64,000 nt of DNA from Shewanella eurypsychrophilus (GCF_007004545.3 NZ_CP045503.2:5396501-5460500); one strand, 5' to 3'; numbered from the stretch's first letter, positions 1 through 10,059 are shown. Notes: generated by a model from the sequence alone, not told the origin. Numbers and translations: made by a program.

Positions 1-1824
1 TGGGTCGGCGTTAGCATGGCTGGTCCACTGCTCGGCAGCATTCATGGCTGGCAGAACTTCATGCCAAGGTGTGCTTGCCGGATAGGGGTTTTGTCCCTTG
101 GCTACCTTCTGTTGATACTCGGTAGAGGACTCATAAGCGCCATCACGACAGGCATTGACGACACCATCTAAACTGACACCATCGGCGATATTAGCCAGAT
201 CATAACGCCCTTCCATGCCACCGATAGGACCATTGCCGTAAGTCGCGCCACCTTTAGCATCATGGGAGCCCACTAAGGTATTCAATGTTGCCCAGATCCA
301 ACCCATCACGAATCCATCGGAAGAGTTAGTGCCGCCGTTACCTGCGATACAAGCCCTACGCCCATAATGGCCTAAGTCTCTCGCCACCTGACGCATATCT
401 TCGATGCCGATCCCCGATTGTTCGGCATAGACCTTCATGCTGGTACGCTGGGCTTCCTCTCTAAGCAGAGACAGGGAAGAAACCAGCTTAACCTTACGGC
501 CCTTGCTATCCTTAAACGCTTTACTGACAAACAGCTCAGCCTTGTCACCATTCTCGGCAGACACTAGGCTGCTTTGGCTCCCCGATTTGATGATTAACGC
601 TTCATCGCCACCTAGGCCAAAATCGGCGGCCTTAGCGAAGTCTAGGTAGTTCGCATGTTTAGGATCCATCACCACCAAGTGGCCGGCATTGGTATAGTTA
701 AGCTCATCCGCTGCCTTCGCCGCCTTCTCACTCGCCCCTTCAAGATGGGCCTTATTGAACCAGCCCTCCTCAAGCATGGTGCGAATGACACCGAAGGAGA
801 ATGCGGCATCCTGGCCAGGTTTTACTGCTAACCATTTGGCATTAGTATCTGCGGCAACCGTGGTACGTAATAACGGATCGACACACACATACTTGAATTT
901 TCTATCGACTCGGCTATCTGCAAGCCCACGTCCAGCTCGGTTAAGACTGTTACCCGATGAACCTGGGCTGGTGCCCATAAACAAGCCATATTCGACATTT
1001 TCCCAGTCGACATCGTTGAGCCACTCTTCAAAACCAGCCGCCATTCCAAGGCTATAGCCAGTTGCTTGCGCCGCTCCGCAATAAGCGTGCTTAGTACCTA
1101 AGTTGCTGGTGCCCCAAGACTGCTGCATGAAGCGCGCATAAAAACTACCTCGCAGCGTATCTTCGGCGCAAAATGTAGCAAACAGATGGTTAGCCGCGGT
1201 GCCAAACTCCGGGAATCCAGGCTTAACTTGTTTATCGAGCTGACGTACAGCTCTTAACCCCTCTACATGGCCCTCTCCAAACAGATCTCCACCTTCTAAA
1301 ATCTCTTTTAACGCTTGCTCATAACTGATGCTGACCCACTTACCCTCGCCACGCTTTCCATCACGTTTAAGTACTTGGGTAACCCTACGTTCGTCATCAA
1401 CGGAGTCGGCACAACTCGCCCCTTTAGCACAGGTAGTGGCGCGATTTTCCAATCCTGCCTCACCCGCTAAGGCTATATAACTTTGCTTAACAGGCATATC
1501 TATAGGTAATGGAGAGCCTGAGTTGTTCTCACAATATGGGTTACCACCAACTTTGAGAACTCTGTCACTCGCTTCATCGATGCGTACCCGTAAGCCGCAG
1601 ATGTTATAGCAACTGAAACAACGAGAATATGCCGTTCTTATTCCAGGCGTTTTACTCCATTGTCCATCGGCACTCTGTAGACACTCTGGAACAATTGGGT
1701 GACCGAAACGGGATACATCTTCGCTGCGCACAGCATTGGATGCTTGAGTTTTTTCACCACAACCCACAGTAGCTGCAGCGACAGAAACAGCGCCCGCTTG
1801 GGTTAAAAATTTACGTCTATCCAT
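1..1824 (-). CDS. Tetrathionate-reductase-like molybdopterin oxidoreductase, catalytic subunit (partial, C-terminus outside window)
   Basis: This is the N-terminal 608 residues of a periplasmic molybdoenzyme; the frame stays open to the window edge. It starts with a Tat signal (MDRRKFLTQAG). A 4Fe-4S motif follows with Cys at 69, 72, 76 and 132 (C-x2-C-x3-C-x55-C). The stretches GKRGEGKW, EGGDLFGEGHV and AYCGAAQ resemble the TtrA/SrdA/ArrA branch, closest by memory to TtrA. The Cys of AYCG is the probable Mo ligand. The FeS partner lies 9 bp upstream in the same operon, and a membrane NrfD-like anchor may lie beyond the window. The substrate (tetrathionate, another sulfur compound, selenate or arsenate) is not settled by sequence. 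Family membership is confident. Confidence 0.85.
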   Translation of the reverse strand, partial: MDRRKFLTQAGAVSVAAATVGCGEKTQASNAVRSEDVSRFGHPIVPECLQSADGQWSKTPGIRTAYSRCFSCYNICGLRVRIDEASDRVLKVGGNPYCENNSGSPLPIDMPVKQSYIALAGEAGLENRATTCAKGASCADSVDDERRVTQVLKRDGKRGEGKWVSISYEQALKEILEGGDLFGEGHVEGLRAVRQLDKQVKPGFPEFGTAANHLFATFCAEDTLRGSFYARFMQQSWGTSNLGTKHAYCGAAQATGYSLGMAAGFEEWLNDVDWENVEYGLFMGTSPGSSGNSLNRAGRGLADSRVDRKFKYVCVDPLLRTTVAADTNAKWLAVKPGQDAAFSFGVIRTMLEEGWFNKAHLEGASEKAAKAADELNYTNAGHLVVMDPKHANYLDFAKAADFGLGGDEALIIKSGSQSSLVSAENGDKAELFVSKAFKDSKGRKVKLVSSLSLLREEAQRTSMKVYAEQSGIGIEDMRQVARDLGHYGRRACIAGNGGTNSSDGFVMGWIWATLNTLVGSHDAKGGATYGNGPIGGMEGRYDLANIADGVSLDGVVNACRDGAYESSTEYQQKVAKGQNPYPASTPWHEVLPAMNAAEQWTSHANADP

Positions 1825-1833
1825 TGTCAACTC

Positions 1834-2529
1834 CTAGCGCTGCCATTCGAGAAAATTAAGTGACAAGATCTCTTGATCGTCTGTCTGTTCTGGTAAACCG
1901 ATATAAAAGATATTGGGCTGAGTACCTGCCTCAGATAACATGGCATACGCCTTATTGTCCCTAAGTAGCTCAGAGACCTTGCTTTCAGGATCATTCAGAT
2001 CGCCAAATACCCTAGCTTCACCAATACAGGTCTCAACACAGGCAGGCAGCAGGCCTACTGATACGCGGTGAATACAGAAATTACACTTTTCCGGGGGAGA
2101 TTCTAACGTCTCATCTTTGCGTCTAGCCCCATATGGACAAGCATCGACACAAAGCTGGCAATAGATACACTCATCATGGTCAATGACAACAATGCCATCT
2201 TCTTTACGCTTATAGGTCGCTTCGACAGGACATACATATACACACGCAGGGTTATCACATTGATTACACTGATTTGGTACGGCTAACGTTGATATCTCAC
2301 CTTGATGCTCAATACTCGCTTGATTAACTCGGGTTCTTCCTCGTCCTGCATCAGTCTGGTTTTCCATCGCACAAGAGACGGTACAGGATAAGCATCCAGT
2401 ACAACGGCGAACATCAAACACCATAGCCAAACGTTTTCCTGCAGTTTTTGCCTGTAATTGTGCCATCGGCACAATTGACAGCATGGCACCACCAGCAACC
2501 ATTTTTAATATGGAACGTCTATCCAACAT
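1834..2529 (-). CDS. Tat-exported four-cluster ferredoxin subunit of the TtrA-like reductase (TtrB/PsrB family)
   Basis: This 231-residue electron-transfer subunit should pass electrons from a quinol-oxidising membrane partner to the adjacent Mo subunit in the periplasm. It begins with a Tat signal (MLDRRSILKMVAGG). It carries 16 cysteines in four groups: 43/46/49/53, 88/91/96/100, 121/124/127/131 and 149/152/164/168, the usual pattern for four 4Fe-4S clusters in the TtrB/PsrB/NrfC family. It is the first gene of a minus-strand operon, with the Mo subunit 9 bp downstream. The start at 2529 directly gives the Tat motif. The promoter must lie in the AT-rich region shared with the divergent LysR gene. 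Confidence 0.88.
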   Translation of the reverse strand: MLDRRSILKMVAGGAMLSIVPMAQLQAKTAGKRLAMVFDVRRCTGCLSCTVSCAMENQTDAGRGRTRVNQASIEHQGEISTLAVPNQCNQCDNPACVYVCPVEATYKRKEDGIVVIDHDECIYCQLCVDACPYGARRKDETLESPPEKCNFCIHRVSVGLLPACVETCIGEARVFGDLNDPESKVSELLRDNKAYAMLSEAGTQPNIFYIGLPEQTDDQEILSLNFLEWQR

Positions 2530-2922: not shown

Positions 2923-3054
2923 ATCGATATTTAAAAATTGAGATTAATATCAAAGTAAGAATAATAACCACATTAAAAGTGTGACATATAGCACTGTATT
3001 AACGCCGAGATACATAGATGATACCAGCCAATAACAAATCACTTGATATATACC

Positions 3055-4020
3055 ATGAATAAAATTGACCAGTTAAATTACAATCAATTAAAAGTTTTCA
3101 TTTCAATATATGAACATGGTCAAAGTCATCATGCAGCCAACGAATTAGGCATGACAGCATCTGGGGTCAGCCGCACCTTAAAAATATTAAGAGAGATATT
3201 TAAAGATTCACTATTTATACGTCGCGCTTCCGGATTTGTCGCCACAGAAAAAACTCACCAGATCATTCCAATGGCAAAGGCACTCGTCGAACAGTACCAA
3301 CAAATAGAGGTGCAGCATTCCGTCTTTACGCCTGCCGAGTCAGGTGGCCAATACATCATTCATGCCTATGATGAATTCGTCTATGCGGTGAAGAAGGTAA
3401 TACGCGATGACATACTTCTAGAAGCACCCAATCTTCGCTTCGATGTTCGCGTGCTCACCCACGATTGCAGTATGGAGCTGGCCAATGGTGATATGGACTT
3501 CGTGGTTGTGTATGAAGGATTTAATGGTAAAAACCTCAATTATGAGATGTTCTCCGAAACCGACAGCCTATATTTATTAGCCAGAAAAGATCATCCATTA
3601 CTCTCTCAATCGCTGACCTTGGAATCCATCTCACAATACCCTTGCCTTGAAATAGACAATTATGACGATCTGACCTGCCCGCTATTAGTCAATCTGTGCC
3701 GCGAACAAAATCTCACCATGGACGTTGAAGGCTATACCGATAGTCTCGCATCAGCCATGAGACTACTTAGTGAAAGCGATGCGGTGACATTGAGCTGCAA
3801 TCAGTTCACACGTCAGTTCGTCAAGATGATTCCTCAGATCCAATACATCAAATTACCAGAATATTTAGCACGAAAATGCCGTATCCGCCGCAGAGAAAAC
3901 CGAGAGATTGGCAACTATGTTCTCTTTGGAAATACCAATAATTCAGCAGCATTTAATTGGGTTAAATCCAAACTAATCTGCGGCTTAGAGAGAGAGTGGC
4001 GACTCGCTAGTGATGAATAA
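3055..4020 (+). CDS. LysR-family transcriptional regulator
   Basis: This is a 321-residue LysR-type regulator. The N-terminal winged helix-turn-helix covers about residues 1-65 (LNYNQLKVFISIYEHGQSHH, then SGVSRTLKILREIF and FIRRASGF). The rest fits a LysR substrate-binding domain. I use the ATG at 3055 because it begins at the conserved domain; a TTG at 3043 would add four residues. No strong ribosome binding site is visible. It is divergent from the ttrBA-like operon and about 285 bp upstream of a second molybdoenzyme operon, so it could control either. Its HTH layout resembles the two LysR genes near 36-38 kb in this window. The ligand is unknown. Confidence 0.88.
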   Translation: MNKIDQLNYNQLKVFISIYEHGQSHHAANELGMTASGVSRTLKILREIFKDSLFIRRASGFVATEKTHQIIPMAKALVEQYQQIEVQHSVFTPAESGGQYIIHAYDEFVYAVKKVIRDDILLEAPNLRFDVRVLTHDCSMELANGDMDFVVVYEGFNGKNLNYEMFSETDSLYLLARKDHPLLSQSLTLESISQYPCLEIDNYDDLTCPLLVNLCREQNLTMDVEGYTDSLASAMRLLSESDAVTLSCNQFTRQFVKMIPQIQYIKLPEYLARKCRIRRRENREIGNYVLFGNTNNSAAFNWVKSKLICGLEREWRLASDE

Positions 4021-4304: not shown

Positions 4305-6521
4305 ATGAAGATTAACAGACGCGCATTTCTGCAGGGGGTTGGAGCCAGCTCCATTGTCAGCTCTCTGTCAGGCTTGATGCCCGGCATTGCCAGTGCTACG
4401 GAACAACGTGGCGGCGCACCTGACAAGTTGCTCAAGCGCGAAGGTGAGATTAAATATCACACTTGCCAACGTAATTGTGCCGATCGCTGTCTACTGAAGT
4501 TTACCGTGCAAAATGGCCGTATGACTTATGTTGAAGGTGCTTCAGAGATGAAGAAGATGGGCACCTCTCCCTGCGTTAAAGGCCATGCTTACGTACAATA
4601 CACCTATGCTGCCGATCGTATCTTACACCCTATGGAACGTGCGGGTGAAAAAGGCGAAGGAAAATGGCGTCGTATCTCATGGGATGAAGCCTATGCAAAG
4701 ATCAGCTCTCGCCTGAAGACTATTATTAAAGATCACGGTGCCGATTCAATTCTGCCATACAGCTACTCGGGCCACGAAGGGGTTATCGGTAAGTACGGCG
4801 GACCAAGCCGTTTCTTCAACGCCGTCGGTGCACGTAAACTAGACCGTAAAGTCTGTGTATTTGCCGCCTATGAAGGCCTTAAATCTGTGACCGGTACTTA
4901 TCAAGGTCCAGATCCATACGACAATATCTACACCAATTGTTATATATCTTGGGGCCAAAACGAAACTGCAACTAACGTTCACGGCATCAAGTTTATCAAT
5001 CAGGCTCGTGATAAAGGCGCCAAGCTATTAGTCGTTAACCCTATTCGAACTCCTATCGCCTCTCAGGCCGATATCTGGCTTCAACCTAAGCCAAGTACTG
5101 ATACGCACCTGGCAGCCGGGATCATGAAGTACCTGATCGAGAATAACTTAGCCGACACCAAATTTATCGAAGCCAACACACTGGGTTATCAGGACTTGCT
5201 AAAACGCCTGGACGGAATGAGCTACGACGAAATTGAGAAGGTCACAGGCGTACCAACAGAGAAGATGTTCAAGTTCGCCAAGGCTTACGGTGAATCTGAG
5301 CTATCGGTATTACGTCTAGGTTACGGTATGCAGCGTAACTACAACGGTGCACGTATGTCTCGCGCTATCGCAATGATGCACGCCGTTGCGGGTCAATATG
5401 GAAAGATTGGTAACGGTTTTATCTACGATAATACCCAAGCTGATGACAGCCTAAACTACTCTAAGGGCCGTGCCGATCACATTCACCCTAATAGCGATAC
5501 CGTAGGTCATGTCAACATGACGGAGATCGCCAAAGCTATTCACCCAACAAATCCAACAGCTTATGGCAAGCCAATCAAGCCAATTAAGGCTGTGATTAAC
5601 TACAACGGTAATTTCGTATCGGTTGCCCCCGATTCAAATGCCTGTCGTCGTGGTGCCATGCGTGATGATCTCTTCTTAGTCGTTCATGACTTTCTGATGA
5701 CTGATACCGCAGAGCTGGCAGATATTATCGTGCCATCGACCACACAGTTTGAGTTCCCTGACATGGGCACTGACTATAACTGTTACCACATGCAAACCTC
5801 AGAGAAGGTCATTGAACCGGTTGGAGAATCTAAAGACAACTGGATCTTCTTCAAGGAATTAGCCGCCCATATGGGGCTAGATCATCACCCCGAGCTGCGG
5901 GTCGATTATGAGCAGATCCTGCGTGACTTCTTAGACACAGATGAACCAGCATTTAGACATAACAACATCACTTACGAGCAGATCATCAAAGAGAAATTTG
6001 TCACGGTTTACGATCAACGTCCCTACTTCGGTGACGGCAAGTATAAGACTGACAGTGGCAAAATTGAGTTCTATTCAGAGATGATGAAAGATGCAGGCTA
6101 CCACCCTGTTATCGACTTTGGTCTGCCTGAAGATGAGATGATCCCTGAAGAGAAAAACTTGCCGTTCCGCATGTTATCTCCGGCTATCCCTCAGCGTGCA
6201 AACAGCGCCTTCTACAACGTGAAGTACATTCGTAACTTCCCAGCCTACTTCGCCAAGGTTAATACCGAAGATGCCAAAGAATTAGGGATCGAGAACAACG
6301 ACAGAGTCAGACTCAGCAACCACAGGGGCGAGGCGTTCTTTATCGCGCAAGTGTCGTCTCAGGTTGGCCGTGGCACTCTTATGGCACCGAAAAACAACTG
6401 GCGCCGTATGGATCCACAGGGTAAAGCAAGCTGTACCAACAACCTCACAACCGACAAGTTAACCGATATGGGCGGCTGCTCCGCATACCATTCGACTAAT
6501 GTCGCGCTAGAAAAAGCCTAA
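4305..6521 (+). CDS. Tat-exported molybdopterin oxidoreductase, catalytic subunit (DMSO reductase superfamily, substrate unknown)
   Basis: This 738-residue Mo-bisMGD enzyme is exported by Tat (MKINRRAFLQGVGAS). Cys54, 58, 62 and 90 form the 4Fe-4S motif (C-x3-C-x3-C, then SPCVKG). The sequence around RKVCVFAAYEG suggests Cys184 as Mo ligand instead of the Ser of true DMSO reductases; this alignment was made by eye. The C-terminal pterin-binding domain ends in NNLTTDKLTD. The operon continues with an FeS subunit 10 bp downstream, a TorD-type chaperone and a cytochrome b. The anchor is of formate-dehydrogenase type although the catalytic subunit is not a typical FDH. The substrate is unknown; sulfur compounds, N- or S-oxides and formate-like donors all remain open. 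Confidence 0.87.
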   Translation: MKINRRAFLQGVGASSIVSSLSGLMPGIASATEQRGGAPDKLLKREGEIKYHTCQRNCADRCLLKFTVQNGRMTYVEGASEMKKMGTSPCVKGHAYVQYTYAADRILHPMERAGEKGEGKWRRISWDEAYAKISSRLKTIIKDHGADSILPYSYSGHEGVIGKYGGPSRFFNAVGARKLDRKVCVFAAYEGLKSVTGTYQGPDPYDNIYTNCYISWGQNETATNVHGIKFINQARDKGAKLLVVNPIRTPIASQADIWLQPKPSTDTHLAAGIMKYLIENNLADTKFIEANTLGYQDLLKRLDGMSYDEIEKVTGVPTEKMFKFAKAYGESELSVLRLGYGMQRNYNGARMSRAIAMMHAVAGQYGKIGNGFIYDNTQADDSLNYSKGRADHIHPNSDTVGHVNMTEIAKAIHPTNPTAYGKPIKPIKAVINYNGNFVSVAPDSNACRRGAMRDDLFLVVHDFLMTDTAELADIIVPSTTQFEFPDMGTDYNCYHMQTSEKVIEPVGESKDNWIFFKELAAHMGLDHHPELRVDYEQILRDFLDTDEPAFRHNNITYEQIIKEKFVTVYDQRPYFGDGKYKTDSGKIEFYSEMMKDAGYHPVIDFGLPEDEMIPEEKNLPFRMLSPAIPQRANSAFYNVKYIRNFPAYFAKVNTEDAKELGIENNDRVRLSNHRGEAFFIAQVSSQVGRGTLMAPKNNWRRMDPQGKASCTNNLTTDKLTDMGGCSAYHSTNVALEKA

Positions 6522-6531
6522 GGAGTAAAAG

Positions 6532-7077
6532 ATGTCTATTAATCAAAAAGTGGGCTTTGTCTTCAGACAAGAGAACTGTGTTGGTTGTGGTGCCTGTACT
6601 GTCGCCTGTCAAATCCACAATGAACTGCCAGAGAACCACAGATTTCGTAAGGTCGACCGCTATGAAGTACAGCGTGAAGATGGCGCGATTGATGTGTGGC
6701 TATCTCACTCTTGCATGCACTGTGAAAACCCTGCCTGTCTCATGGTTTGCCCAACTAAGGCCTACCACGTAAGAGATGACGGCATCGTTGTGTTAGATCG
6801 TGAGAAATGTACTGGTTGTGGCCTGTGTGTCAGCGCCTGTCCTTACTCTGCCGTGAGTATTCGCGAAGATGATGGCAAGGCCGATAAGTGCAACATGTGT
6901 GTCGAACTGCTGGACCGCGGCATGAAACCAGCCTGTGTAACCGGCTGCCCGGTGCAATGCATAGAAGTCGACAGTATCGATGAAGTGCTCAAGAAACCTT
7001 CGGCAAGTAAAGAGGGCGTAGGCTATGGCGACTGCATCACTAAACCTAACATGGTGATCATTAAGGAACGTGCATAA
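6532..7077 (+). CDS. Four-cluster ferredoxin subunit (DmsB/FdhB-like)
   Basis: This 181-residue FeS subunit should wire the Mo subunit to the cytochrome b. Sixteen cysteines fall in four groups: 16/19/22/26, 61/64/69/73, 93/96/99/103 and 120/123/135/139. The pattern is that of DmsB-type proteins with four 4Fe-4S clusters. It has no signal peptide, so it is probably carried out by Tat as a passenger of the Mo subunit, as known for DmsAB and FdnGH. A GGAG ribosome binding site precedes the ATG, 10 bp after the catalytic gene. Its TAA overlaps the ATG of the chaperone gene by one base, so the two are translationally linked. Confidence 0.9.
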   Translation: MSINQKVGFVFRQENCVGCGACTVACQIHNELPENHRFRKVDRYEVQREDGAIDVWLSHSCMHCENPACLMVCPTKAYHVRDDGIVVLDREKCTGCGLCVSACPYSAVSIREDDGKADKCNMCVELLDRGMKPACVTGCPVQCIEVDSIDEVLKKPSASKEGVGYGDCITKPNMVIIKERA

Positions 7078-7691
7078 TGAAGGCTGAATATGGCTCAACC
7101 ACAGCGGCATACTTCGCTTATAAATCGATGATTTTTAATCCTTCGGGCACTGAGGCGTTGAAAGGCCTCATCGACTACCTGAGCGCAAGTAGGCCAGAGA
7201 GTCCACTACTCGCCGAAGCGATAAAGTTTATCGAAGATCCTGCGGAGCTTGAGTTTGATTTTAATCGCATGTGCATTGGACCATATAAACTGCTGGTAGC
7301 CCCTTATGAAGGGATATATATCAGTGGCAACCATGTCATAAACACAGATGAAACGGTGAGAGTTGCCGAGTTTTACCAAGAGATAGGCCTGGTTATCGAT
7401 GATAAGTTTAATGAACCAGCCGATTTTATCGGTAATGAACTTGAGTTTCTCTACTGTGTTCACGCCTTAGCTTGTGAACAGAAACAAGTCAATAATCTTG
7501 ATGCGTTCAAAGAGCTCAAGCAGCTAGCCAATGAGTTTCTCAGCAAGCATCTTGGCAATTGGATCGCTCCCTTCTGCGAAGGAATACGCCAACATGCCTT
7601 TCACGCTTTTTGGCGGGAATTTGCTATAGAACTTCATCACTTTATTACCAGTCAGATGAAAGATGATGTTAACAGTCCAAACCCCTGTTAA
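7077..7691 (+). CDS. TorD/DmsD-family molybdoenzyme maturation chaperone
   Basis: This 204-residue cytoplasmic all-helical protein has the family signature EPADFIGNELEF at residues 113-124, FLSKHLGNWIAPF at 154-166, and the earlier FNRMCIGPYKLLVAPYE block. TorD-family members bind the Tat signal of their partner and hold it until Mo cofactor insertion. The partner is almost certainly the Mo subunit two genes upstream. The start codon overlaps the stop of the FeS gene (TAATG). Placing the chaperone in the operon argues for a dedicated, substrate-specific maturation system. Confidence 0.88.
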   Translation: MKAEYGSTTAAYFAYKSMIFNPSGTEALKGLIDYLSASRPESPLLAEAIKFIEDPAELEFDFNRMCIGPYKLLVAPYEGIYISGNHVINTDETVRVAEFYQEIGLVIDDKFNEPADFIGNELEFLYCVHALACEQKQVNNLDAFKELKQLANEFLSKHLGNWIAPFCEGIRQHAFHAFWREFAIELHHFITSQMKDDVNSPNPC

Positions 7692-7801
7692 CTCATCGCT
7701 ACCGAGTAAAACGGCATTATCCGTCAATTTCCGAATCCACCATTATTTCGGGGTTAGCGGCTAGCGCCAACTAAGCGACATGAGTCGCAAAGGAGTTATT
7801 A

Positions 7802-8767
7802 ATGAACAAAGCAATACGCTGGTTTAGCTTTATTCTCGTCGGTTTGCTTACCTGTGGAACTGCGATGGCAACCGACGTTGCCACCTTGCAGCCACAGCAA
7901 TGGCAAACGATAGAGATACATGCAATACCGGGGGATATACCTGAACTTAGAGGGATGCCGACACAAGCAGAATTGCTATTACCGGCATCAATTCCAGAAG
8001 ATGCCGATGAAGCCGTGCTCGGCTATTTAGGCGCAACCGACAATATCGCATTTCTGGTTTATGCCAGTCTGTTTGGCGTAATAGCCTTGTTTATCATCTT
8101 CATCATGGTGAACGGGATCTCACGCCTGGATAAAGGCTTCTCGGGAAAGATGATCAAGCGCTGGTCAGGCTTAAGTGTCAGTGTTCACTGGCTCGGAGCA
8201 ATTGCCTGCATCTTACTCATGTTATCCGGTTTGATCCTTGCGGGTGGTCGACTCTATATGGAGCCAGGCATGAATGCTTCCAGCTGGGCAGCCTTAGTTG
8301 GACTGTCTAGCGGACTGCATGAGCTAATGGTATTTCCCTTCATTGCGGGTTACATCTTGATGATCTTGATGTGGGCACCTAAGCAGATCCCCACAAGTTA
8401 CGATCTCAAATGGTTCGCCGTATTGGGTGGCTACATCAATATGGGTAAGAAACAACATCCAGATGCAGGCTTCGCCAACGCCGGTGAGAAACTCTGGTTT
8501 TGGGTCTTCGCACTGTTCGGCGGCTTCATGATAATTTCCGGGTTAATCATGATGTTTCCAGCCACGTTCGAGGTTAGCAAGAACACCGCTAACCTTATGT
8601 TACTCACGCATATCGTCTCCACTGTCATCATCAGCGCCTTCTCTGTGGTCCATATCTTTATGGCCACTGTGATGTCTGAAGGCGGCATGTCTAACATGAC
8701 CTCTGGATACTGCGATGAAAACTGGGCCAAGCAGCACCACAACCTTTGGTTCAAAGAACTCAAGTAA
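7802..8767 (+). CDS. Formate-dehydrogenase-type cytochrome b membrane subunit (FdhC/FdnI family)
   Basis: This is a 321-residue inner-membrane diheme cytochrome b. It has a signal peptide (cleavage near AMA at 21-23), a periplasmic stretch to about 80, and about five hydrophobic spans (near 82-104, 128-148, 172-190, 231-252 and 266-290). His129, His173, His270 and His284 sit in membrane spans and are the likely heme ligands. The C-terminus GYCDENWAKQHH matches the FdhC/FdnI tail. Length (about 320) fits the FdhC type rather than the short FdnI. AAGGAG precedes the ATG. It would exchange electrons between quinone and the FeS subunit. DMSO-reductase-like operons usually use DmsC or NrfD anchors, so this pairing is unusual. 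Confidence 0.87.
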   Translation: MNKAIRWFSFILVGLLTCGTAMATDVATLQPQQWQTIEIHAIPGDIPELRGMPTQAELLLPASIPEDADEAVLGYLGATDNIAFLVYASLFGVIALFIIFIMVNGISRLDKGFSGKMIKRWSGLSVSVHWLGAIACILLMLSGLILAGGRLYMEPGMNASSWAALVGLSSGLHELMVFPFIAGYILMILMWAPKQIPTSYDLKWFAVLGGYINMGKKQHPDAGFANAGEKLWFWVFALFGGFMIISGLIMMFPATFEVSKNTANLMLLTHIVSTVIISAFSVVHIFMATVMSEGGMSNMTSGYCDENWAKQHHNLWFKELK

Positions 8768-8932
8768 ACGGGCTAATTCCTAGCATCAAGCTTTGCTCAC
8801 CATCAACTTCATAGGGTGGTGAGCAATCTCAAATAGAGCTTAGGCTCTGACCCAAAAATAGTTCAGCTTTGCACTAACCGACTCTTGCCTAAAGAGAATG
8901 GCGGCTAGTTGCAGCCTGAAAAAACAAAGAAG

Positions 8933-9991
8933 ATGAATACGATGAACACACTAAAATCACTCGTGGCAATTGCCGTGACCCTTTGCAGCTATAACGCCTA
9001 TGCCGATGAGGCTCAGTCATTAGAGGAGCGTGTAGCCCAGCTCGAACACAACACCACAGCATCACAATTTAAAAATAGTCAGGTCAGTCTATATGGCTCA
9101 ATCCGTCCAACACTTAGCTACCTGGATGACAGCCAAGATAAAACCTGGGATGTTCGTGATGCCCTGTCTCGTGTAGGTATCAAGGCCAGCACAGAATTTG
9201 CCGATGGTTGGAGCGCTATAGCTCAGGGAGAGTGGAGCGTAGACATCGCCAATTCGGGGAACTTTGGCAAGGCACGCCAAGCCTATGCCGCTATCGCTTC
9301 ACCATACGGGCAAGTGGGTATAGGTAAGCAACGTCCGGCTCAGTACACCTTAGTTGCCGAATATGTCGATATCTTCAACCATGGTAACAGCCCATACGCC
9401 TATGATCATGAGAGCCCATTCTTCGTCGATAACTTTATTACTTACCAACTCGTCACCGGTGATTTCACCTGGATGGCTGGTGCACAAGTTGATGGTAATA
9501 GCGGTGATAATGGTGCCGATATGGTCAACATAGGTGTCGGTTACGATTTAGGCCAGCTACATCTAGGCTTAGGTTATGTCAGCCAAAACACCCAGACAGA
9601 TGCCAGCCTCGAAGGTGATGATCAAACCATTGGTGGCGTTGTAGCTTACACCTTCAGCAACGATCTCTATGTCGCTGTCAGCTACCAAGATAAACAATAT
9701 AACCTTGATGCCTTAAGCCAAGACCGCAGTGGTAGCACCTTAGACACTGCGCTGGCCTACCCTATCGCCAAAAACTACAAGGTGAAACTGGGCTACTTCC
9801 AGTTTAAAGATGGCATCGATGACAACACGTCAGCCGACTATGACGGCTTCAATACGACCCTCGAGTGGAATCCAATCTCAAATGTACGTGTTCACTTAGA
9901 GTACTTAGCCAAGAACTCTGATAAGCATGCAGATGATCAAGCACTAACCTTAGGCTTCAGATACGACTTCAACCTTAACTGGAAAGGCTAA
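8933..9991 (+). CDS. Gram-negative porin (OmpC-like family)
   Basis: This outer-membrane beta-barrel porin of about 352 residues has an N-terminal signal peptide ending near NAYA. A short coiled segment (SLEERVAQLEHN) follows, then the QVSLYGSIRPTLSYLDD opening strand typical of proteobacterial trimeric porins, with many alternating aromatic strands. The ATG at 8933 is chosen; ATG 8942 is nearly as good, and neither has a strong ribosome binding site. The C-terminus is DFNLNWKG, lacking the usual terminal Phe/Tyr recognised by the Bam machinery. It follows the molybdoenzyme operon by about 165 bp and may admit the enzyme's substrate, but co-transcription is unproven. Confidence 0.82.
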   Translation: MNTMNTLKSLVAIAVTLCSYNAYADEAQSLEERVAQLEHNTTASQFKNSQVSLYGSIRPTLSYLDDSQDKTWDVRDALSRVGIKASTEFADGWSAIAQGEWSVDIANSGNFGKARQAYAAIASPYGQVGIGKQRPAQYTLVAEYVDIFNHGNSPYAYDHESPFFVDNFITYQLVTGDFTWMAGAQVDGNSGDNGADMVNIGVGYDLGQLHLGLGYVSQNTQTDASLEGDDQTIGGVVAYTFSNDLYVAVSYQDKQYNLDALSQDRSGSTLDTALAYPIAKNYKVKLGYFQFKDGIDDNTSADYDGFNTTLEWNPISNVRVHLEYLAKNSDKHADDQALTLGFRYDFNLNWKG

Positions 9992-10034: not shown

Positions 10035-10059
10035 AAAGAGGCCTACTAGAGGCCTCTTT
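10035..10059. terminator. Rho-independent terminator after porin
   Basis: The arms AAAGAGGCCT (10035-10044) and AGGCCTCTTT (10050-10059) are perfectly complementary around a 5-base loop, and a further T follows. It ends the porin transcript. Confidence 0.85.

Follow-up and report, generated by a model that had tools for sequence, protein, structure and literature searches.

A molybdoenzyme operon with an FdhC-type cytochrome b in Shewanella and Ferrimonas, and its possible partnership with an anchor-less TtrBA

The operon and the family of its catalytic subunit

Which reaction is served by an exported molybdoenzyme that appears to sit on a cytochrome b of the formate dehydrogenase (FDH) type without being an FDH itself? 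The question is raised by five genes at positions 4305 to 9991 of a 64,000-nucleotide stretch of the Shewanella eurypsychrophilus genome (NZ_CP045503.2:5396501-5460500), the whole of which is referred to here as the window, and especially by the first of them, which encodes the molybdenum (Mo) subunit MoA. Judging from the gene content, it is very probable that the architecture is that of a membrane-bound respiratory molybdoenzyme linked to menaquinone. MoA belongs to a conserved subfamily, found in dozens of Shewanella and Ferrimonas species, in which no characterised member was found. The block consists of the following features (FeS, iron-sulfur; aa, amino acids; Tat, twin-arginine translocation; bisPGD, bis-pyranopterin guanine dinucleotide):

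3043..4020, + strand: LysR-type regulator, directly upstream of MoA and in the same conserved block
4305..6521, + strand: MoA, Mo-bisPGD catalytic subunit, Tat-exported, 738 aa
6532..7077, + strand: FeSB, electron-transfer subunit with four [4Fe-4S] clusters, 181 aa
7077..7691, + strand: TorD/NarJ-family maturation chaperone, 204 aa; its reading frame abuts the FeSB gene
7802..8767, + strand: CytB, FdhC-type diheme cytochrome b, 321 aa, with an N-terminal extension
8909..9991, + strand: Gram-negative porin (Porin_4), the final gene of the block
10035..10059, + strand: terminator-like hairpin 3' of the porin, a pattern match only

The five genes from MoA to the porin (5/5) are open and intact, and the Pfam domains Molybdopterin, Molydop_binding, Molybdop_Fe4S4, Fer4_11, Nitrate_red_del (TorD/NarJ), Ni_hydr_CYTB and Porin_4 all scored above cut-off, which bears out the operon proposed in an earlier, sequence-only reading. 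The host genome is a single contig of 5.85 Mb and holds 17 Molybdopterin-domain matches.

The Molybdopterin, dinucleotide-binding and Fe4S4 domains place MoA in the dimethyl sulfoxide (DMSO) reductase superfamily of Mo/W-bisPGD enzymes. Its cluster cysteines are C54-x3-C58-x3-C62 together with C90, and Cys184 (codon 4854-4856) falls in a MAFFT alignment into the Mo-ligand column, which holds Cys in NapA, FDH and PhsA and Ser in DmsA and TorA. Alignments with MAFFT and hhalign served to check residue 184 because the AlphaFold2 model of MoA, built from 23 alignment rows, was unusable (predicted local distance difference test score 52, predicted template modelling score 0.42). The hhalign comparison with the FdhA1 of the same genome gave the same register for residue 184, and in that with its PhsA the ligand Cys fell in the same region. 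Cys184 is also invariant across all MoA homologues examined, and it is thus the probable Mo ligand; the Tat-exported Mo subunit with a C-x3-C-x3-C motif and probable Cys ligand described earlier therefore holds. The residue that follows is Val185 in MoA, being Val in the closest homologues (clade A, below) and Thr, Ile or Ala elsewhere in the family. The Cys/Sec-His pair that is the hallmark of FDH, and is present as C-H in the genome's own FdhA1 and FdhA2 and in FdhF of the hydrogen-dependent CO2 reductase, is lacking.

In NCBIfam, MoA stayed below every curated cut-off, the best model being DmsA/YnfE (276 of 777.7 bits), followed by Fdh-alpha (266 of 666) and PhsA (223 of 694). The MoA family formed a clade of its own with support 100 in two trees, outside the DmsA, PhsA/PsrA, TtrA, FDH and Nap groups; ArrA, AioA and SrdA were left out of both trees, and NarG was their only type II reference. 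Among 150 genomes, type II DMSO reductase references gave no match above cut-off. The sister group consists of cytoplasmic Mo enzymes of about 700 aa from Proteobacteria and Paenibacillus (in the first tree also from a planctomycete), and the two together group at 99-100 in both trees. In approximately unbiased (AU) tests, MoA alone was rejected as a companion of PhsA/PsrA (p 0.0001) and of FDH (p 3e-49), although these tests also force MoA away from its cytoplasmic sister group. As the deep sister of MoA plus the cytoplasmic enzymes, PhsA/PsrA (p 0.07), acetylene hydratase (p 0.16) and FDH with Nap (p 0.14) were all retained. A tree that put MoA inside a characterised PhsA/PsrA or FDH clade would have made the operon ordinary; this was not obtained, and the separate clade supports the earlier description of an uncharacterised respiratory enzyme. 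No published work on this operon was found in the open-access (PMC) literature.

Close to some of the cytoplasmic enzymes from Proteobacteria (loci L101-L110) lie AMP-binding genes of the acyl-CoA ligase type. The neighbours of these relatives differ from locus to locus and indicate no function.

FeSB contains 18 Cys, of which 16 lie within the four cluster motifs, so the previously reported count of 16 is right for the motifs and not for the total. It is closest to DmsB in NCBIfam, under the DmsB equivalog cut-off. CytB, a cytochrome b561-fold protein by Pfam and NCBIfam assignment, passes the FDH-gamma cut-off (TIGR01583; 154.7 vs 115.85 bits), retains all four heme-ligand histidines of FdnI (two hemes) and shares 47% identity with FdhC1 and 42% with FdhC2 of the same genome, but only 21% with E. 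coli YdhU, which stands in here for the PhsC family. The FdhC-type diheme anchor was thus correctly recognised, its length being 321 aa rather than 320.

Compared with known systems, the operon shares with each only some of its parts. It resembles PhsABC/PsrABC in its Tat-exported Mo subunit of similar length, Cys ligand and four-cluster FeS subunit, and PhsC, the anchor of the Salmonella thiosulfate reductase, is also a cytochrome b. However, the cysteine motif differs (C-x3-C-x3-C vs C-x2-C-x3-C), MoA scores under the PhsA cut-off and falls outside the PhsA/PsrA clade, and the PhsA-equivalog operon of the same genome encodes, in place of a cytochrome b, a membrane protein of 322 aa with nine helices, which its gene order marks as PsrC-type. 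With DmsABC/YnfEFGH it shares the C-x3-C-x3-C motif, the best-scoring model for MoA and the nearest relative of FeSB, but MoA has a Cys and not a Ser ligand, the anchor is a cytochrome b and not DmsC, and the scores are far under the cut-offs. The likeness to FdhABC/FdnGHI is that CytB belongs to the family of the FDH membrane subunit; FDH membership of MoA itself was considered and rejected, as the His after the Cys is missing, the score is below the NCBIfam cut-off and MoA lies outside the FDH clade. The closest solved structure by sequence profile is acetylene hydratase (2e7z, E 2e-70), a cytoplasmic, non-redox enzyme, whereas MoA has a Tat signal, an FeS partner and a membrane partner.

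Conservation and the co-occurring TtrBA

The order LysR-MoA-FeSB-TorD-CytB-porin is kept across the Shewanella and Ferrimonas loci that lie on long enough contigs, and the operon is therefore far beyond chance. Clade A MoA (82-100% identity) is present in 30/129 Shewanella genomes, and further genomes of the genus encode clade B and intermediate homologues (55-61%) or clade C homologues (about 41%). In Ferrimonas, MoA is found at 75-77%, with others at 56-60% and about 40%. Beyond these two genera the best matches have about 31-34% identity, start near residue 44-53 and are without the Tat leader. Among plasmids the only relative, at 33%, was one in Paenibacillus, and a scan of viral contigs found none. 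Carriers of the operon presumably include S. halifaxensis and S. loihica PV-4.

Beside the operon, the window contains part of a second Mo enzyme:

1..1830, - strand: TtrA-like Mo subunit, 1014 aa in the genome, the window edge cutting the gene; no adjoining membrane subunit
1834..2529, - strand: TtrB-like FeS subunit of this co-occurring enzyme

Beyond what the sequence-only reading had described, we noticed that this enzyme accompanies the operon. TtrA of the window type (at least 81% identity) was found in 29/30 Shewanella genomes with clade A MoA and in 0/99 other Shewanella genomes, the exception being strain HN-41 (G084, locus L054), where a DsbI-like gene is present and LysR is only 62% identical to that of the window. 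Linkage and shared descent partly explain this co-occurrence and inflate the statistic. Ferrimonas offers a cleaner case in a small sample: there the TtrA orthologue (61-64%) is unlinked to MoA, yet it occurs in 5/6 clade A genomes and in 0/8 others (Fisher p 0.003). In one genome (G110) TtrBA lies downstream of CytB in the same orientation, with a putative porin gene between them.

At all loci examined in Shewanella and Ferrimonas (window 1-2529; L127-L130, L134), TtrBA of the window type has no membrane subunit of its own alongside, whereas two other Shewanella TtrBA types do have an adjoining one. Related two-component systems (response regulators 37%, histidine kinases 27% identical) lie beside the MoA operon in G110 (L091:10399-12346) and near TtrBA in G102 (L130:1955-3851), which may hint at a shared regulon of the operon and TtrBA. 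In G102, TtrBA is also adjoined by genes for a small cytochrome c with four hemes and for a flavoprotein of the Tat type, resembling flavin-based periplasmic reductases (L130:13317-15169).

Proposed function and alternatives

TorD would load the cofactor into MoA and proofread its export, MoA-FeSB would be located in the periplasm seated on CytB, and electrons would travel between Mo and menaquinone by way of five FeS clusters and two hemes. The quinone site of CytB, by homology to FdnI, would lie on the cytoplasmic side, which is where FdnI reduces quinone. With such a topology, energy is conserved when a periplasmic donor is oxidised and spent when a periplasmic acceptor is reduced, and the enzyme could thus either oxidise a low-potential donor with energy conserved or, like PhsABC, draw on the proton-motive force to reduce a low-potential acceptor. 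Provided that no energy is to be lost, an anchor of the FdhC type speaks for couples of low potential, that is, donor oxidation or a thiosulfate-like reduction.

The direction of the reaction is close to even. The suggestion that the enzyme is an oxidase rather than a reductase is possible but not favoured, and it takes formate or hydrogen oxidation as the usual role of cytochrome b anchors, which omits PhsC. Because the FDH His is absent and the partner belongs to the tetrathionate reductase (TtrA) family, the evidence points at least equally to oxyanion reduction. No reductase was deduced from the presence of TorD, because fdh operons can contain it too (PMC4464133).

The partnership with TtrBA tilts the interpretation towards oxyanions of sulfur or selenium. 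We tentatively propose, at somewhat less than even confidence, that MoABC and the anchor-less TtrBA form a joint module acting on sulfur (or selenium) oxyanions, in which TtrBA would take a more oxidised species, for example tetrathionate, and MoABC one of its products, for example thiosulfate, while the porin would let the anions in and LysR would regulate the operon. From its conserved position the porin is a plausible substrate channel, as had been suggested before. The pairing suggests a mode of respiration not described before in Shewanella and Ferrimonas, and it yields a testable hypothesis on the sharing of catalytic and membrane modules and on the compound respired by these marine bacteria. 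That MoAB and TtrBA share one FdhC-type cytochrome b in a two-step oxyanion respiration, possibly running in opposite directions as an internal dismutation, is a much more doubtful extension.

Several observations weigh against the joint module, in addition to the linkage and shared descent behind the Shewanella counts. A role in thiosulfate reduction would be redundant, since the genome also holds the PhsA-equivalog operon, and in S. halifaxensis, an apparent carrier of the MoA operon, PhsAB-PsrC is controlled by the thiosulfate sensor ThsSR (PMC5408782). The neighbouring TtrA reaches 741 bits against the NCBIfam TtrA cut-off of 1750 and its operon has no TtrC membrane subunit, so with such a score it may not reduce tetrathionate. 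Moreover, clade B operons are mostly without this TtrBA type, most of them having the DsbI-like gene instead.

The alternative that survives best, and that we regard as quite possible though not probable, is a quinone-reducing dehydrogenase: in the periplasm MoA would oxidise a small molecule of low potential, and CytB would carry out an electrogenic transfer of the electrons to menaquinone in the manner of FDH-N, with TtrBA as a separate reductase fed by the quinol pool. The closeness of CytB to FdhC1, its FDH-gamma score and its four retained histidines agree with this, and in this topology it is oxidation that conserves energy, as is established for FdnGHI. On the other hand, MoA is no FDH, its co-occurrence with a reductase-family enzyme is near-strict and no nearby gene points to a donor.

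A selenium version of the oxyanion module, with TtrBA reducing selenate and MoABC acting on selenite or a related oxyanion, appears unlikely. Ferrimonas futtsuensis and F. kyonanensis, both selenate-reducing according to the title of a reference cited in PMC11944866, carry MoA, and the TtrA lineage, grouped with SrdA and an alternative arsenate reductase (PMC10100899), includes the selenate reductase SrdA. The correlation, however, comes from two species only, and selenite is reduced at a high potential, for which an electrogenic cytochrome b would not be needed. Least credible is that MoA is an ordinary PhsA/PsrA, DmsA or FDH member diverged in its host branch: all belong to one superfamily and the AU test retains the deep sisters, but the well-supported grouping with the cytoplasmic enzymes outside those clades, the rejection of MoA alone with PhsA/PsrA or FDH (in tests that also break the cytoplasmic link) and the scores below every curated cut-off argue against it.

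Variants of the locus and minor observations

Several clade A and clade B loci have common flanks, namely an approximately 198-aa conserved protein, an S9 peptidase-like gene and a radical-SAM (S-adenosylmethionine) gene, which suggests that the two are alternative forms of a single locus. One genome (G038), which we take to be S. halifaxensis, has clade A and clade B operons in tandem (L082/L083), about 12 kb apart. Most clade B loci have between LysR and MoA a DsbI-like protein consisting of a DsbB domain and a long C-terminal part. The insertion (L084:10318-11760, L054:8453-9889, L058:8297-9763) is also seen in HN-41 and several Ferrimonas, and a 41% relative lies elsewhere in the window genome (G000:C1:919728-921164). 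In both clades there are several loci where the porin is followed by chemoreceptor genes.

Upstream of MoA, conservation in the alignment is mostly at the ribosome-binding stretch. FNR-type sites with at most two mismatches gave 65 matches in the whole window against 50.5 expected (standard deviation 6.9), a number reached in 2/100 shuffles; neither these nor the one-mismatch matches near the operon, before LysR (2862-2875) and before the porin (8793-8806), are used as evidence.

At clade C loci (MoA about 41%, L092-L098) an FeS subunit lies alongside, a TorD-like gene is near in several and no cytochrome b was seen. The one clade C locus with typed neighbours (L093) lies in a starch/maltodextrin cluster with glycoside hydrolases GH97 and GH15, an alpha-amylase and a major facilitator superfamily transporter.

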